From Eubacterium sp. (lineage in GTDB: Bacteria; Bacillota_A; Clostridia; Lachnospirales; Lachnospiraceae), in contig JAMPGN010000263.1 in NCBI GenBank assembly GCA_023663915.1, positions 1 to 5,031 on the forward strand: a stretch of DNA of 5,031 bases. The letters are read 5' to 3'. Below are positions 2 to 5,031 of the stretch, one piece after another (the stretch's first letter is position 1; each line of letters starts with the position of its first letter). A program made the position numbers and the translations under genes. The notes below the pieces were generated by a model. The model searched no databases, was not told the DNA's origin, and saw only the letters and a list, made by a program, of their open reading frames with translations.

Positions 2-436
2 GCCACGCGGGGAGATCAGACCGTGTTTTATGCGGGGTATCGGATGCAGAGAAACGGCTGGGTCGTCTGGGAAGACAGGAAATATCATCTGGACGAGAAC
101 GGCTTCGTGCAGAAAGGCTGCTGGTTTGACGATGAAACGGGCAGATATTTCCTTGCCACAAAGGATGGTCACGCGTTGCGTGAGGATGTCACGATTCAGG
201 ATGAGGATTACTACTTTGACGAAAACGCGGTGATGATGCGGGGGCTTGTGACGAGACCCGACGGCAATGTCTATTATTACGATCCGGAGACGGGCGCATT
301 GCAGCGGAATGTGACCGTGACGGTGGACGGCGTGGACTACGAGGTGAACGGAAAGGGGATCGCGGCAGCAGTCGTGCCGCCCGCACCGACGGAGGCGCCT
401 GCGGAGGCGCAGCCTGCGGAGGGGCAGGCGCAGTAG
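2..436 (+). CDS. C-terminal part of a cell-wall-binding repeat protein (5' end outside window)
   Basis: The reading frame is open from the left edge to TAG at 434-436, giving about 144 visible residues. An in-frame GTG at 23 is unlikely to be the true start, because open coding continues upstream of it (ATRGDQT before it) and no ribosome binding site precedes it. The protein consists of degenerate repeats of about 20 residues rich in Trp, Tyr, Phe, Gly and Asp, for example GWVVWEDRKYHLDENGF, GRYFLATKDGHA, DYYFDENAVMMRG and NVYYYDPETGALQ. This is the pattern of the choline/glucan-binding (CW_binding, PF01473-like) repeats that anchor secreted proteins to wall polymers. It ends in a low-complexity Pro/Ala/Glu/Gln tail of about 25 residues. 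The enzymatic or adhesive domain would lie upstream, outside the window, so its actual role cannot be told. The gene is clearly more GC-rich than the operon to its right and has its own terminator, so it is an independent unit. Confidence 0.8.
   Translation, partial: ATRGDQTVFYAGYRMQRNGWVVWEDRKYHLDENGFVQKGCWFDDETGRYFLATKDGHALREDVTIQDEDYYFDENAVMMRGLVTRPDGNVYYYDPETGALQRNVTVTVDGVDYEVNGKGIAAAVVPPAPTEAPAEAQPAEGQAQ
397..426 (+). repeat. Two tandem 15-bp units in the Pro/Ala/Glu tail
   Basis: Positions 397-411 (GCCTGCGGAGGCGCA) and 412-426 (GCCTGCGGAGGGGCA) differ at one base. They sit in the coding frame and encode the Pro-Ala-Glu-Ala/Gly-Gln units of the C-terminal tail of the wall-binding protein. 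Such units can expand or contract without changing the frame. Confidence 0.7.
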
Positions 437-470
437 CGCAGGGAAATACAACAATAAATCAGATTGGGAA

Positions 471-497
471 AGCGTCGGCGGAGCCCGGCGCTTTTTT
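471..497 (+). terminator. Intrinsic terminator of the wall-binding protein gene
   Basis: AGCGTCGG (471-478) pairs with CCGGCGCT (485-492) to give an 8-bp GC-rich stem with one G-U pair. The loop is 6 nt (CGGAGC) and a run of six Ts (492-497) follows. It lies 35 bp after the TAG stop, where a rho-independent terminator is expected. Confidence 0.88.
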
Positions 498-519
498 ATG
501 ATCGCACGGATCGGATTAA

Positions 520-771
520 AAGAGGTCAGACTTGACGACATTGTCTATGTTTTTATCGCGGATAGTTCAGAAAAGGTGTTATATCTGTGCGCTATGAAAG
601 GAAAACGTTTTGAGAGAAGGCGTTTTTACGATTGCGTTAAACAGACAGCAGTATGAAAGAAAAAGGGCGCGGCATTTTCTGGATTCATATTTTGATGGTT
701 CTTTGAATCAGTTTATGTCAGCCTTAAATGGAGGTGAGAAGATATGCTGTGATGCGACGGAAGAATTGTGA
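520..771 (+). pseudogene. Broken BlaI/MecI-family transcriptional repressor
   Basis: One frame across this stretch reads like the second half of a BlaI/MecI/CopY-type winged-helix repressor. First comes a recognition-helix-like segment (TTLSMFLSRIVQKR; family pattern roughly TvxtfLsRLvkKG). An in-frame TGA at 595-597 follows. Then comes the C-terminal dimerisation part: NRQQYERKRARHFLDSYFDG, followed by SLNQFMSALNGGEKICC and DATEEL (family pattern roughly vsreeYerkearxfLdxxfdGSlxxlvaaL...eElxeL). The first 30 to 40 residues of the wing-helix domain are missing: stops at 499-501 and 517-519 close the frame on the left, right against the preceding terminator. A TGA at 769-771 ends it. The internal stop and missing N-terminus make a functional repressor unlikely. 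A short product from TTG 610 would contain only the dimerisation half. The family assignment is from memory of the alignment pattern, not a search. Confidence 0.68.
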
Positions 772-891
772 TAGATCTCGGAGCATATAGTGCATTTTTC
801 GAGGATGGTTTCTACCAGAAGAGAGAGATAATCCTAATTAATTTGTTTATTTTGGTTAGCTATGACGAAAAGGTAAAATTGTTGAATTTAC

Positions 892-920
892 TTGACAATT
901 GTATATATTTGTTATATATT
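892..920 (+). promoter_or_regulatory. Strong sigma-A type promoter
   Basis: The -35 box is a perfect TTGACA (892-897), the spacer is exactly 17 bp, and the -10 box is TATATT (915-920), one mismatch from TATAAT. The surroundings are very AT-rich. Transcription would start around 926-928, inside the left arm of the palindrome that follows. It points toward the ABC transporter/radical SAM operon and is the best promoter seen upstream of it, although its transcript must pass the hairpin and T-run at 921-959. Confidence 0.78.
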
Positions 921-959
921 ACCACTAGAACTACACGCGTGTAGATCTAGTGGTTTTTT
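921..959 (+). terminator. Long palindrome plus six Ts at the transcription start: terminator or attenuator
   Basis: Positions 921-937 and 938-954 are inverted copies with a single A-A mismatch (930/945). The outer arms are ACCACTAGA and TCTAGTGGT, the core is CTACACG/CGTGTAG, and the Ts run from 954 to 959. For any transcript entering from upstream this is a near-ideal intrinsic terminator on the + strand. For a transcript starting at the promoter just before it (about 926-928), the outermost left-arm bases would be absent, leaving a shorter stem separated from the Ts. Read-through from that promoter may therefore be easier. It could also act as a DNA operator. Confidence 0.6.
931..944. promoter_or_regulatory. 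Perfect 14-bp palindrome, candidate repressor operator
   Basis: CTACACGCGTGTAG is a perfect dyad centred at 937/938, about ten bases after the predicted transcription start, which is a classic position for repression. It contains TACA and TGTA half-sites, the words known from BlaI/MecI/CopY operators, but spaced by 4 bp rather than the usual 2. A remnant of a BlaI-type gene lies only 160 bp upstream. That this is a BlaI-family operator is inference. Confidence 0.35.
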
Positions 960-1274
960 GTTATGTAACAAATTCTGAAATATTGAATTTATGCGGATTT
1001 AATCAAGAAAATTGCAAAGATGCTTATGCTGTCGGGGGCAATTAGAAAGCGGCTGGAACGAGGGTGGGGGAAGCATAGTGAATATTTGAAGCATACCTGA
1101 CAAGATTTACAAAGTAAAAAAGCGGAGAGTGTGACGCAACGGCACAGGAACGCATTTTGAAAGCGTAAAAGCGAAGGAATACAGCCGAAAGAGACTGTCT
1201 CTACAGTTTCCGTGTGATTCAGTAGTCGTTATGCTGAGATATCTGTTGTGATTTGACGGCATTTAGAGTCTGAT
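960..1274 (+). other. Leader-like region without a convincing gene
   Basis: These 315 bases between the hairpin and the ABC transporter hold no ORF above about 40 codons. I see three things. First, a frame open from 987 to 1100 with ATG at 1020, giving a basic 26-residue peptide. Second, an overlapping frame from TTG 1012 to 1089 with a short CLCC cluster. Third, a stop-free but start-less stretch (1135-1251) reading ...YSRKRLSLQFPCDSVVV..., which looks like residual coding or a spread repeat. A 13-bp palindrome, AGAGAC-T-GTCTCT, sits at 1190-1202. None of the small ORFs has a good ribosome binding site. No tRNA, riboswitch or clear second promoter was recognised. Confidence 0.5.
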
Positions 1275-1280
1275 AGGAGA
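1275..1280 (+). promoter_or_regulatory. Ribosome binding site deciding the GTG start of the ABC gene
   Basis: AGGAGA lies 7 nt before GTG 1288. The frame is closed upstream by TAG at 1264-1266 and has no ATG between, so the well-placed site supports the GTG start. Confidence 0.8.
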
Positions 1281-1287
1281 AGAAATT

Positions 1288-3111
1288 GTGGTCTTTGCGT
1301 CCATTATTGTAAATAATAACCGGACAATTAAGGCGTTTGCCTACTGTATTAGGTTGTCTTGGCGCGTATCAAAGGTATATACAGTTCTACAATTTCTGAC
1401 GCGGATAGTATCTGGTTTTTTACCTGTTTTGATTACTTGGAATACAAAGGAGATTATTAATATTCTCAGTGTTGACACAGGAGCGGAGACATGGAAGCGA
1501 GAGGATTTATTGCTGATTAGAATGGGTGTTATGCTGTTGCTTTTTCTACTAAGGCTTTTGGCAACGCAGATTTATACTTATGTGAGCAAGATGCAGAGTG
1601 AAAGGGTTCTTCGTTTTGTAGAGCAGGAACTTTCGTTAACTGCGATGCGGATGAAGCTGGAATATTTTGACGACCCAAAGTACTATGACATGTTTGAAAA
1701 GGTGAAAATGGACGTTTTCTCTCTTTCGAGTGCTATGTATGATGGTATCTCCGCAGTCAGCTATATGTTTTCGCTTTGCAGCTGTGTTTATTTTCTGACA
1801 GGACTTGGACCTGTTTACACGCTGTTGGTCGTAGCTGCCACCGTACCTATGGCGGTGTCGGAATATAAATATACAAGGGAATTATACTCATGGGGAGTGA
1901 ACCACATGAGAGAAGAGCGGGAAATGTCTTATATATATTGGGTAGCTACAGATCGGAGGTTTGCGCAGGAGATACGTGTTTTTGGGACGCAGAATTATTT
2001 AATAGAAAAGTATCGTAAGGTTTGGAACGGATATTTCTCTAATAAATCGGAATTATCAAAAAAAAGAGCTACGTTGAATTGCGTATTGTCAATATTTCCA
2101 GAGCTGATTGTAGTTGCAGCACTGCTCGTAACGGGAAGTAGAGTGTTTGCCGGAACAACCATGATTGGTGATTTTACATTATATAATGGCTTGCTTGTAC
2201 AGTTGATTGAGTATTTGCGTGGCATGGTTGTGTCATTCATGGGACTGGTTGAAAAAAAATTACAGATAGAGCATGTATCTGAGTTTGAAAAGCTGGTGGG
2301 AGAAGAAAAAGTAACTGGCGGAAAGCATCTTTGCAAGAAAGTCGATATCGAATTTCGGAATGTCAGCTTCCAATATCCGGGAACGGACCACTATGTAATA
2401 CAAGATGTCAGTTTTCGGTTGCCAGCGGGGAAAAAGATATGCATTGTGGGAGAGAACGGAGCGGGAAAATCCACGCTGTTTAAATTGTTGCTACGTTTTT
2501 ACGAACCTTGTGAGGGGCAGATTCTGTTAAATGGTATGCCGATTGAAGAGTATGATCTTGACAGCTTAAGGAAAAGGTTTAGCTGCTTTTTCCAGAAAGC
2601 AGCTAATTATGCTTTTACAATACAGGAAAACATTCGATTTTCACAGATTGATAAAGTGGGCAAGGAAGCCGCAGAGAGTGAGAAACGGGCAGAGGAGATG
2701 GCAGGAGTTTCCGCCATGCTCGATTTGATGCATCAGGGCAGGAATACCTTTCTGACGAGGGCGTTCAGTGATGACGGAGTGGAACTGTCTGGCGGACAGA
2801 ATCAAAAAATCGCCTTGGCGAGAATGTTTTATAAAGATGCGTCCGTATTGATATTGGATGAGCCTTCGGCGGATTTGGACCCAAAAGCGGAGTACGAATT
2901 ATTTCAGGCAATTCAAAAAGAATGCAAGGGGCAATCCGTGTTTTATGTGTCCCACCGTTTGGCAAATGTGGATTTGGCTGATGAAATTATTGTGATGGCT
3001 GGGGGGCAGATTTGTGGGATGGGAACCCACGAAGAATTGATGAAAAATTGCCAGATATATGAAAGACTGTATCATTATCAGGCGGATAAGTATGTAACGG
3101 AAGAAAAATGA
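1288..3111 (+). CDS. ABC exporter half-transporter (membrane domain fused to ATPase) for a modified peptide
   Basis: This 607-residue protein has the type IV exporter (MsbA-like) layout: an N-terminal membrane domain with about six helices (roughly 31-51, 75-97, 153-170, 172-190, 264-288, 293-318), then an ATPase domain from about 350. It should work as a dimer in the cytoplasmic membrane. ATPase motifs are complete: A-loop Tyr363, Walker A GENGAGKST (388-396), Q-loop Gln436, signature LSGGQ (500-504), Walker B VLILD with catalytic Glu525, D-loop SADLD (527-531) and H-loop His556. The stretch EIRVFGTQNYLIEKYR (228-243) is a typical intracellular coupling region. There is no N-terminal C39 peptidase domain, so it would export a peptide without cleaving the leader itself. 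Start is GTG 1288 with AGGAGA upstream. It is followed 13 bp later by a radical SAM peptide maturase, so the likely cargo is the modified peptide. Export rather than another substrate is inferred from context. Confidence 0.92.
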   Translation: MVFASIIVNNNRTIKAFAYCIRLSWRVSKVYTVLQFLTRIVSGFLPVLITWNTKEIINILSVDTGAETWKREDLLLIRMGVMLLLFLLRLLATQIYTYVSKMQSERVLRFVEQELSLTAMRMKLEYFDDPKYYDMFEKVKMDVFSLSSAMYDGISAVSYMFSLCSCVYFLTGLGPVYTLLVVAATVPMAVSEYKYTRELYSWGVNHMREEREMSYIYWVATDRRFAQEIRVFGTQNYLIEKYRKVWNGYFSNKSELSKKRATLNCVLSIFPELIVVAALLVTGSRVFAGTTMIGDFTLYNGLLVQLIEYLRGMVVSFMGLVEKKLQIEHVSEFEKLVGEEKVTGGKHLCKKVDIEFRNVSFQYPGTDHYVIQDVSFRLPAGKKICIVGENGAGKSTLFKLLLRFYEPCEGQILLNGMPIEEYDLDSLRKRFSCFFQKAANYAFTIQENIRFSQIDKVGKEAAESEKRAEEMAGVSAMLDLMHQGRNTFLTRAFSDDGVELSGGQNQKIALARMFYKDASVLILDEPSADLDPKAEYELFQAIQKECKGQSVFYVSHRLANVDLADEIIVMAGGQICGMGTHEELMKNCQIYERLYHYQADKYVTEEK

Positions 3112-3116
3112 GGGGG
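3111..3116 (+). promoter_or_regulatory. Ribosome binding site overlapping the ABC stop codon
   Basis: AGGGGG starts on the last base of the TGA stop (3109-3111) and is 8 nt from ATG 3125. This arrangement favours translational coupling of the exporter and the maturase. Confidence 0.75.
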
Positions 3117-3124
3117 AATAAGCA

Positions 3125-4549
3125 ATGGAAAGAAAAAAATTTCAGCCATTTATTCATTTGTTAGAAACACCCTATGGAAAGTATGTTTATGATCTCAATA
3201 AGAGTTCTATAATTAAGGTGCCAGATGCGGTGTATTACTATTTACAGGACATGATAAGTGAACCGGATGCAAAAGTTAGAACGTATTTGGAGAACCTGAA
3301 AAATCAAGGATATCTAAAAGAAAAACATATTAAGATAAGCGAACATTCGGTGACTGAGTATTATCATTCCTTTATTAGTCGTAATTTGGGGCAGCTTACT
3401 TTACAGATTACACAAAGGTGTAACTTGAAATGTGAATACTGTGTTTATTCCGGTAATTATTATAATAGAGTCCACACCAATAGGACGATGCCATTCGAAG
3501 TGGCAAAAAAAGCAATTGATTATTTTATCACGCATTCCAGAGATTCAAGTAATTTTGGGATTTCCTTTTACGGCGGAGAGCCACTATTGGAGTTTGATCT
3601 GATAAAAAAATGTGTTGCATATGCGGACAGCAGGTCGGAGGGTAGAAAGATAACTTATAATTTTACTACAAATGGAACATTACTTACGGAAGAAAAATAC
3701 AAATTCCTAGTAGAACACGATTTTGCAATACTTGTGAGTCTGGATGGTCCTGAAGAGGTGCATGACAGGCATAGGATTTTCTCTGGGTCATCTGTAGGAT
3801 CTTTTCACCAAATGTTTTGTAATCTTAAAAATTTTAAAGAAAAATATCCAAAATATTATGCAGAAAAAATATCTTTTAACACAGTGTTAGACCCTAGGTT
3901 TTCGATTAAGGAAATTTGCGATTTTACAAGGAAGAATGATTTAATCAATCAGTCAACAATATTGTCTTCCGTAATTAATGGTGTACAGGCAAAAGAAGAG
4001 ATTTACTACACTGAACAATTTGAAGAAGAATATGAATATGAAAAGTTTAAGGTAATGTTGTGGAAGTTGGGGCGATTAGAAAGAACTGATATACCGCCAT
4101 TGATGCAACGGCATTTTATCGAGATAAAACGTTTGGCTGTAGGTTTTGAAAGAATTAATTTGAACGAATTACCAGATAAGGGACATAGGGGTGGTCCTTG
4201 TATACCAGGGGTGCGTAAATTATTCGTTGATGTGGATGGGAAACTTTTCCCGTGTGAACGGGTGAGTGAAACATCGGAAGTGGCTTGTATTGGACATATA
4301 GACGAAGGGATTGATGAGGAAAAAGCATTACAGTTACTTAATATAGAATGGCTTACTTCTGAAAATTGTAGAAATTGTTGGGCGTATGTTCTGTGTCCTA
4401 CCTGTTTTACCCATGCGGATGATAAGGGTAGATTGTCAAAAGAGAAACAAATGCGGGAATGCCAAGGGTGTAGGATGCAAATTGAGGATGATATTAAGGA
4501 TTATCTGGTTTTGAATGAGTTGGGATACAACAGACAATTGGATGCATAG
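3125..4549 (+). CDS. Radical SAM/SPASM peptide maturase, CcpM (Cys-rich peptide, Clo7bot) type
   Basis: The protein has 474 residues, usual for the family. Residues 1-85 form an N-terminal domain (GKYVYDLNKSSIIKVPDAV) of the kind seen in peptide maturases and may help bind the leader. The radical SAM barrel has the cluster motif CNLKCEYC (Cys99, Cys103, Cys106), the AdoMet-binding YGGEP (149-153), TTNG (181-184) and SLDGP (205-209). The C-terminal SPASM region carries auxiliary iron-sulfur ligands: Cys359, then G-x4-Cys377, CERVSE, Cys415-x2-Cys418-x5-Cys424-x2-Cys427 and Cys446-x2-Cys449. It would use reductively cleaved S-adenosylmethionine to form a 5'-deoxyadenosyl radical and install a bond, often a thioether or carbon crosslink, in a precursor peptide in the cytoplasm. 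The segments CVYSGNYYNRVH and PCERVSETSEVACIGHIDEG recall the CcpM/Clo7bot maturase family (TIGR04068 as I remember it). The exact chemistry and substrate cannot be read from the sequence. It lies between the exporter and a probable maturation partner. Confidence 0.93.
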   Translation: MERKKFQPFIHLLETPYGKYVYDLNKSSIIKVPDAVYYYLQDMISEPDAKVRTYLENLKNQGYLKEKHIKISEHSVTEYYHSFISRNLGQLTLQITQRCNLKCEYCVYSGNYYNRVHTNRTMPFEVAKKAIDYFITHSRDSSNFGISFYGGEPLLEFDLIKKCVAYADSRSEGRKITYNFTTNGTLLTEEKYKFLVEHDFAILVSLDGPEEVHDRHRIFSGSSVGSFHQMFCNLKNFKEKYPKYYAEKISFNTVLDPRFSIKEICDFTRKNDLINQSTILSSVINGVQAKEEIYYTEQFEEEYEYEKFKVMLWKLGRLERTDIPPLMQRHFIEIKRLAVGFERINLNELPDKGHRGGPCIPGVRKLFVDVDGKLFPCERVSETSEVACIGHIDEGIDEEKALQLLNIEWLTSENCRNCWAYVLCPTCFTHADDKGRLSKEKQMRECQGCRMQIEDDIKDYLVLNELGYNRQLDA

Positions 4550-4554
4550 GAGGG
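4548..4554 (+). promoter_or_regulatory. Ribosome binding site overlapping the maturase stop codon
   Basis: AGGAGGG begins inside the TAG stop (4547-4549) and lies 4 nt before ATG 4559. It is the strongest site in the window, fixes the start of the third gene, and suggests coupling. Confidence 0.85.
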
Positions 4555-4558
4555 ACTT

Positions 4559-5031
4559 ATGAAGAAGATGATGATTTACCCATATAGCAAGACCTACGAG
4601 CCATATGTAAAAAGCTCAGAAATACTGGGTGAATATACGGTGACAGCTTTGGTCAGTCCAAGAGGATGGGGATATGAAGGAGACATTGTTACAAGTGAAC
4701 AAAAAAGAGAATATGTGGTTTCAGCAGATTTTTCAGATAAGTTAGATGATTGTACCTGTGTGTGGTTTGTGGCGGATGGCAGACTGGAAATGCCCAAAGA
4801 GCTATTGAGAGAAAAATTGTTAGAAGCAGTATCTGCTGGGAAAGAAATCTTATATACGAGGTATAGTGATAATAGTTACAAAGAAATGAAAAATCTTATT
4901 CCAAAGAAATTGTGTATAGAACGGGGTGCAAAACTCTCAAATTTACTTAGTCTATTGCCAGATAGGACATACGATATTGACACACCTGTCGTTGTTGTTA
5001 TAGGGACAGGAGAAGATACAGATAAATTAGC
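4559..5031 (+). CDS. Peptide maturation system protein (TIGR04066-like), N-terminal part, cut by window end
   Basis: The frame is open from ATG 4559 to the right edge (157 complete codons, no stop). It is a soluble-looking protein with no signal peptide or membrane segment. It begins MKKMMIYPYSKTYEP, continues with LVSPRGWGYEGD at about 31-42, and near the window end has a beta-strand and glycine-loop segment VVVVIGTGEDTDKL (about 144-157), which looks like the entry to a nucleotide-binding or Rossmann-like domain. These landmarks match my memory of the 'peptide maturation system protein' family (TIGR04066), found next to CcpM-type radical SAM maturases and Cys-rich precursor peptides. Its biochemical role is not established to my knowledge; a helper in maturation or in precursor handling is inferred from neighbourhood alone. 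The start is set by an AGGAGGG site overlapping the maturase stop. The gap to that gene is 9 bp, so it belongs to the same operon. Confidence 0.75.
   Translation, partial: MKKMMIYPYSKTYEPYVKSSEILGEYTVTALVSPRGWGYEGDIVTSEQKREYVVSADFSDKLDDCTCVWFVADGRLEMPKELLREKLLEAVSAGKEILYTRYSDNSYKEMKNLIPKKLCIERGAKLSNLLSLLPDRTYDIDTPVVVVIGTGEDTDKL

Follow-up and report, generated by a model that had tools for sequence, protein, structure and literature searches.

The 5,031-nucleotide stretch of Eubacterium sp. DNA considered here (contig JAMPGN010000263.1), called the window over its whole length, carries a compact operon for an ATP-binding cassette (ABC) exporter, a radical S-adenosylmethionine (SAM)/SPASM maturase and a partner protein of family TIGR04066. 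Judged by its sequence, the cluster encodes a ribosomally synthesized and post-translationally modified peptide (RiPP) of the CLI_3235/CcpM type, a further member of a known family, as in SacP23 of Paenibacillus polymyxa. Taken together, the assignment to this class, the general course of the RiPP route and the location of the precursor gene past the window end carry high confidence. What seems to be fresh is what its two partner proteins probably are, and that both seem degenerate: TIGR04066 is predicted to be a full DUF1611/DgcN-fold protein, and TIGR04069, encoded in the relatives' clusters, an acyl-carrier-fold protein without the phosphopantetheine serine. A more tentative proposal, possible rather than probable, is that the maturase of CcpM clusters works on a platform of these two retired enzymes.

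All three genes lie on the + strand. The exporter (1288..3111, 607 aa) starts with GTG behind an AGGAG and joins its transmembrane and ATPase parts in one chain, with Walker A at 388, LSGGQ at 500, Walker B at 520 and the H-loop at 555. The maturase CcpM (3125..4549, 474 aa) follows after 13 bp and, after a further 9 bp, the 5′ part of the TIGR04066 gene (4559..5031), which is open at the window end and comprises 157 codons of a predicted 354. Each of the three starts has a purine-rich ribosome site. These coordinates, gaps and family matches agree with the initial annotation, which described an exporter, a maturase and a TIGR04066 partner in a tight operon for maturation and export of a Cys-rich RiPP. 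The same gene order occurs in Lachnospiraceae bacterium UBA7143 (L001) and Lachnospiraceae isolate Mgla_MAG_31-bin_7 (L002), where the DNA is 76% and 80% identical along some 3.7 kb and the maturases are 73% and 71% identical to that of the window.

The best family for the maturase is TIGR04068, at 556.1 bits over a cut-off of 500, as the profile check proposed in the initial annotation had anticipated. The protein has CxxxCxxC at 99-106 and further cysteines at 359-449, which we take to be of the SPASM type. The Clo7bot type first suggested gives way to the CLI_3235/CcpM type, the Clo7bot maturase model TIGR04334 reaching only 57.7 bits (cut-off 600). An anaerobic sulfatase maturase, named at the outset as the competing assignment, was also rejected, with TIGR03942 at 93.2 bits (cut-off 349). 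The runner-up families are RumMC (228 bits), lachnocin (227) and PapB (198), all far under their own cut-offs, so that its links may be of the sactipeptide or the ranthipeptide type. At E≤1e-100, TIGR04068 is found in 16 genomes out of 397 sampled from the relatives' family, 13 of them over the cut-off, and in none of 14 control genomes.

A Cys-rich precursor had been sought upstream of the operon and in its gaps and reported missing, and a profile search over the six frames of the window concurs: no precursor-like frame is found (best 3.8 bits, E 2.2). The profile holds 30 distinct sequences, namely 28 database homologues, among them the precursors of L002 and L140, plus those of L001 and L121; it gives E 1e-24 for L001 and 1e-28 for L002, scores which, both being profile members, show only that the search works. 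The best explanation for the absence is that the window ends too early. In L001 and L002, where the downstream half of the cluster is present, the maturase is followed by TIGR04066 (354 aa), a TIGR04069-like protein and then a Cys-rich peptide of 47 or 59 aa; FtsX-like permeases are also encoded. Locus L121 has the order maturase-TIGR04066-TIGR04069-precursor in common with them, behind a different transporter set. The precursor begins 314 bp after TIGR04066 ends in L001, 309 bp after it in L002 and 314 bp after it in L121 (counted for the first possible start of two); in L140, a cluster without TIGR04069, the spacing is 122 bp. The database cluster representative nearest to the window's TIGR04066, P0026, has 354 aa and is identical at 148 of 157 positions (94%); this length and the relatives' spacing place the precursor near 5932-5937. 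By analogy, the window would hold the 5′ half of the cluster, and the precursor is expected about 900 bp past its end, after the remaining part of TIGR04066 and a TIGR04069 gene, which suits the downstream position offered as one option in the initial annotation. The unusual composition offered there as an alternative is not what the relatives suggest, their precursors being ordinary Cys-rich peptides with a Lys/Arg-rich leader like MKKxLKKRxxRGQ..LQxY.

The survey behind these comparisons covers 28 distinct CcpM loci, the window included; L120 (the same locus as L003) and a partial copy of L140's maturase at the end of L001 are left out of the counts. By eye, 25 of the 28 have a Cys-rich small open reading frame (ORF) with a Lys-rich start, while the window, L132 and L139 show none. 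It stands downstream in 11 loci and on the 5′ side of CcpM in 14, so that an upstream position in the window would have parallels; an upstream precursor of unusual composition is nevertheless very improbable, since the profile search covered that region and the four nearest relatives (L001, L002, L121 and L140) all have theirs downstream. The upstream cases do count against the expected placement. A further point against the main reading is that TIGR04065 gives the precursors of L001 and L002 only 16.5 and 16.8 bits against a cut-off of 26, and that their TIGR04069 proteins are under the curated cut-off.

The third gene of the window matches TIGR04066 over positions 1-162 of 361 with 94.6 bits, a score under the cut-off of 200 because the gene is cut by the window end; the relatives in L001 and L002 reach 266 and 292 bits. 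At E≤0.001 it has no match to a further NCBIfam family, and its early description as TIGR04066-like stands. One TIGR04066 protein, named for Blautia schinkii (P0032), is 45% identical to that of L002. The fold predicted for P0026 is the two-domain DUF1611/DgcN fold of 2obn, 2g0t and 7xrj. The link to DUF1611 is drawn from this prediction and from relatives fused to S8 proteases, the best of which scores 47.8 bits with PF07755 (cut-off 25); a search of PDB sequences with the TIGR04066 profile returns two weak unrelated matches only.

In the TIGR04066 proteins the P-loop is eroded. The last residues of the window's cut piece read GTGEDTDKL, and P0026 has GTGEDTDKLA. The canonical GKx[ST], as in 2g0t, occurs in 0 of 78 rows, compared with 8 of 9 of the S8-fused relatives. 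The 78 rows represent 26 distinct CcpM-locus sequences and 51 database homologues, the latter counted irrespective of their genomic neighbours; L003 and L120 have the same sequence, hence 77 are distinct. The window's cut piece, L140's partial first copy and P0052 were dropped for an incomplete motif. In a tree of 44 rows, which includes 7 of 52 database homologues and 9 of 12 rows from outside the CcpM loci, the canonical group consists of 6 rows, and long branches meet at the base (with a program warning), so no direction of P-loop loss is drawn.

Those 12 rows come from a total of 43 TIGR04066 places, 22 at CcpM loci and 21 others of which 12 were fetched. They comprise nine S8 protease fusions (L153-L161), with the TIGR04066 domain behind the protease, and the unfused L162-L164; GKx[ST] is present in nine (eight fusions and L162). 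Like the window, the S8-fusion systems pair a TIGR04066-type domain with a radical SAM protein (weak in L156). All have the S8 protease and most have ABC transporters, and they differ from the window in the fusion itself and in the mostly canonical P-loop. Among three of their maturases that were scanned, those of L153 and L154 tend towards TIGR04463/Clo7bot without reaching the cut-off, and that of L160 is a lachnocin maturase. A fusion of another kind is found in L136, where CcpM and the P-loop part of TIGR04066 form one 726-aa frame (9205-11385).

The second partner, TIGR04069, is encoded in the relatives' clusters, many of which also have an S8 protease; neither gene lies in the window. 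An alignment of 18 rows (17 close homologues and the protein of L003, with P0070 left out for its divergent end) gives a predicted model with a predicted local distance difference test (pLDDT) of 90, and Foldseek matches this model first to three carrier proteins, the best being 6lvu (template modelling score, TM, 0.77; E 3.4e-3). Aligned with 3gzl and 9ls6, the model has Ala41, where helix II begins, in place of their phosphopantetheine serine. This position is Ala in 18 of 18 rows and also in P0070. In a broader survey set of 25, identical sequences excluded, it is Ala in 9, Pro in 8, Asp, Val and Leu in 2 each, and Ser and Thr in 1 each.

Both partners keep close company with the maturase. 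TIGR04066 starts no more than 150 bp past the maturase end in 25 of the 28 loci, but is 1.6 kb away in L132, fused in L136 and absent from L139. In 24 loci our own profile finds TIGR04069 no more than 2.6 kb away, to one side or the other; the remaining four are the window (cut), L132 (about 2.8 kb away), L139, whose maturase is distant (354.9 bits, below the TIGR04068 cut-off), and L140, the second of two tandem clusters, in which TIGR04069 belongs to the first. These tandem CcpM clusters (L001 9995-21413 and L140 8042-12199) occupy one genome, with FtsX-like permeases and an ATPase between them; the second has no TIGR04069 and bears the sole S8 protease of the two loci.

The loss of the P-loop and of the carrier serine points to two partners that act by binding in CcpM clusters, and the fusions, one to the maturase and nine to the protease, tie TIGR04066 to both. 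Partners of this kind would fit best with a platform on which CcpM is offered its precursor. The proposed route would start from a short peptide with a Lys/Arg-rich leader and a Cys-rich core, on whose cysteines CcpM would form thioether cross-links by SAM radical chemistry, with TIGR04066, TIGR04069 and CcpM as a mainly non-catalytic platform holding or presenting the peptide. Pfam shows no match to a peptidase domain in the exporter, and leader removal is thus probably the task of another protein; a QhpE-like S8 protease encoded elsewhere would make this cut, the window's exporter would secrete the product, probably a bacteriocin or a signal, and the cluster of the window's organism would continue as in its relatives. 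The fold that serves as a scaffold here may, in neighbouring RiPP families, be a live enzyme or a switch coupling cleavage to a further step, a part of the same tentative proposal.

Several observations weigh against this proposal. P0026 has 13.6 bits with PF07755, under the cut-off, and the TIGR04069 model has no Foldseek match at E≤0.001. The P-loop lysine is kept in 74 of the 78 rows (GK in 5), which leaves room for phosphate or nucleotide binding by TIGR04066. The split by fusion is imperfect, L160 being S8-fused with an eroded motif and L162 unfused with a canonical one, and the CcpM-TIGR04066 fusion comes from a single genome assembly. As to the chemistry, the literature covered contains no demonstrated cross-link for a TIGR04068 product, and the accessible text on SacP23 calls its cross-link still to be elucidated (PMC10731318).

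That account, as far as its accessible text goes, offers a functional comparison. Expressed in Bacillus subtilis, the cluster of P. polymyxa #23 yields an antibacterial product of mass 3404 whose N-terminus is blocked; its eight genes include, as in the window, an ABC transporter, a TIGR04068 maturase and TIGR04066, and further a TIGR04069 gene, a subtilisin-type protease, a CLI_3235-family precursor and an ECF sigma-like gene (PMC10731318). Bacteriocins are by analogy a likely product class for the window's cluster too. The view that the product is uncharacterised is fair for the window, and falls short for this expressed relative. In Roseburia intestinalis L1-82, a five-gene cluster is described with TIGR04068, TIGR04066, TIGR04069, a subtilase and an ABC transporter, and there too, in the portion of the report available, the authors saw no obvious structural gene (PMC4573289); the likeness is drawn from this published description. 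The structural peptide of the SF-50 sactipeptide cluster is assigned to TIGR04065 in the accessible part of PMC7872077.

The SacP23 authors suggest that TIGR04066 serves immunity and that the carrier homologue takes part in modification (PMC10731318, accessible text). The fold and residue evidence presented here does not favour either role. A related possibility is that both proteins are catalytic, a DgcN-like acyltransferase and an unusual carrier together acylating the mature peptide, for instance on the N-terminus that S8 cleavage leaves free. This appears unlikely: the canonical P-loop is missing from all 78 rows of the CcpM-locus and homologue set and the serine from 24 of the 25 carriers, which alone places carrier-borne acylation low, a common fold does not show function, and the blocked N-terminus of SacP23 has other causes, discussed in the available text (PMC10731318). 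Literature searches, whose coverage of subscription papers is poor, turned up no work on DgcN as an enzyme, for which only its PDB title is drawn on here; DUF1611 comes up in papers on Dickeya phages and on the cell length of Dickeya, the name CcpM in one paper, CLI_3235 also in PMC7343975 and SacP23 also in PMC11594732. A non-catalytic platform stays the preferred reading.

Ahead of the operon lies what remains of a control region. Tblastn with the 129-aa L002 protein finds a BlaI/MecI-type (PF03965) repressor remnant at 538..768 (+ strand), equivalent to residues 45-122. It contains an in-frame stop, and parts of it lie in different frames; residues 1-44 were not found at the remnant by this search. 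L002, unlike the window, has the regulator gene intact before its operon (798-1184, PF03965 66.7 bits). A promoter-like TTGACA-17 bp-TATATT is read at 892..920 (+) and is conserved in the DNA alignment with L002, as is the inverted repeat at 921..954 (+), which has arms of 17+17 nt (94% complementary), a central CTACACGCGTGTAG and then a T-run. Its hairpin has -18.7 kcal/mol (z -5.1). We take the BlaI-type operator to follow the consensus TACA...TGTA. A transcript from the promoter would begin inside the repeat, for which reason the repeat is likely an operator over the expected start site; a plain terminator hairpin is possible and less favoured. A half-site similar to this dyad also stands ahead of L002's repressor gene. 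The roughly 300 bp from 1000 to 1304, before and into the exporter start, do not align with L002, and the first residues of the exporter accordingly differ.

The operon may be unrepressed here or under another repressor. It is very unlikely to be decayed or silent, as the broken regulator, with its stop and frame changes, and the missing precursor could suggest: the exporter and the maturase have unbroken frames, that of TIGR04066 stays open as far as the window reaches, all three have a purine-rich ribosome site, the promoter and dyad are conserved, P0026 is full length, and repressor loss more likely frees than silences an operon.

The upstream neighbour, outside the operon, is the 3′ end of a gene for a choline-binding/glucan-binding-repeat protein (2..436, + strand; PF19127 53.1 bits, cut-off 27; TIGR04035 47.3 bits, cut-off 147.7). 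The G+C content is 0.59 in 1-436 and 0.36-0.42 in 437-5031, as if the cluster had been inserted. Rfam gives nothing at the gathering score, and a plasmid collection searched in near mode gives no match. A viral collection holds 11 weak relatives, all at ≤36% identity, and so gives no sign of a phage-borne copy among its sequences.

For the family, precursor searches near such maturases can fail in part because the gene may lie on either side, may score under the curated model's cut-off and may be about 1.4 kb away. TIGR04066 gains a testable identity as a DUF1611-fold protein whose P-loop is eroded, and TIGR04069 one as a carrier-fold protein not expected to carry a phosphopantetheine arm. These identities speak against the immunity and modifying-carrier suggestions of one paper, and both proteins are predicted to be partners of the maturase.
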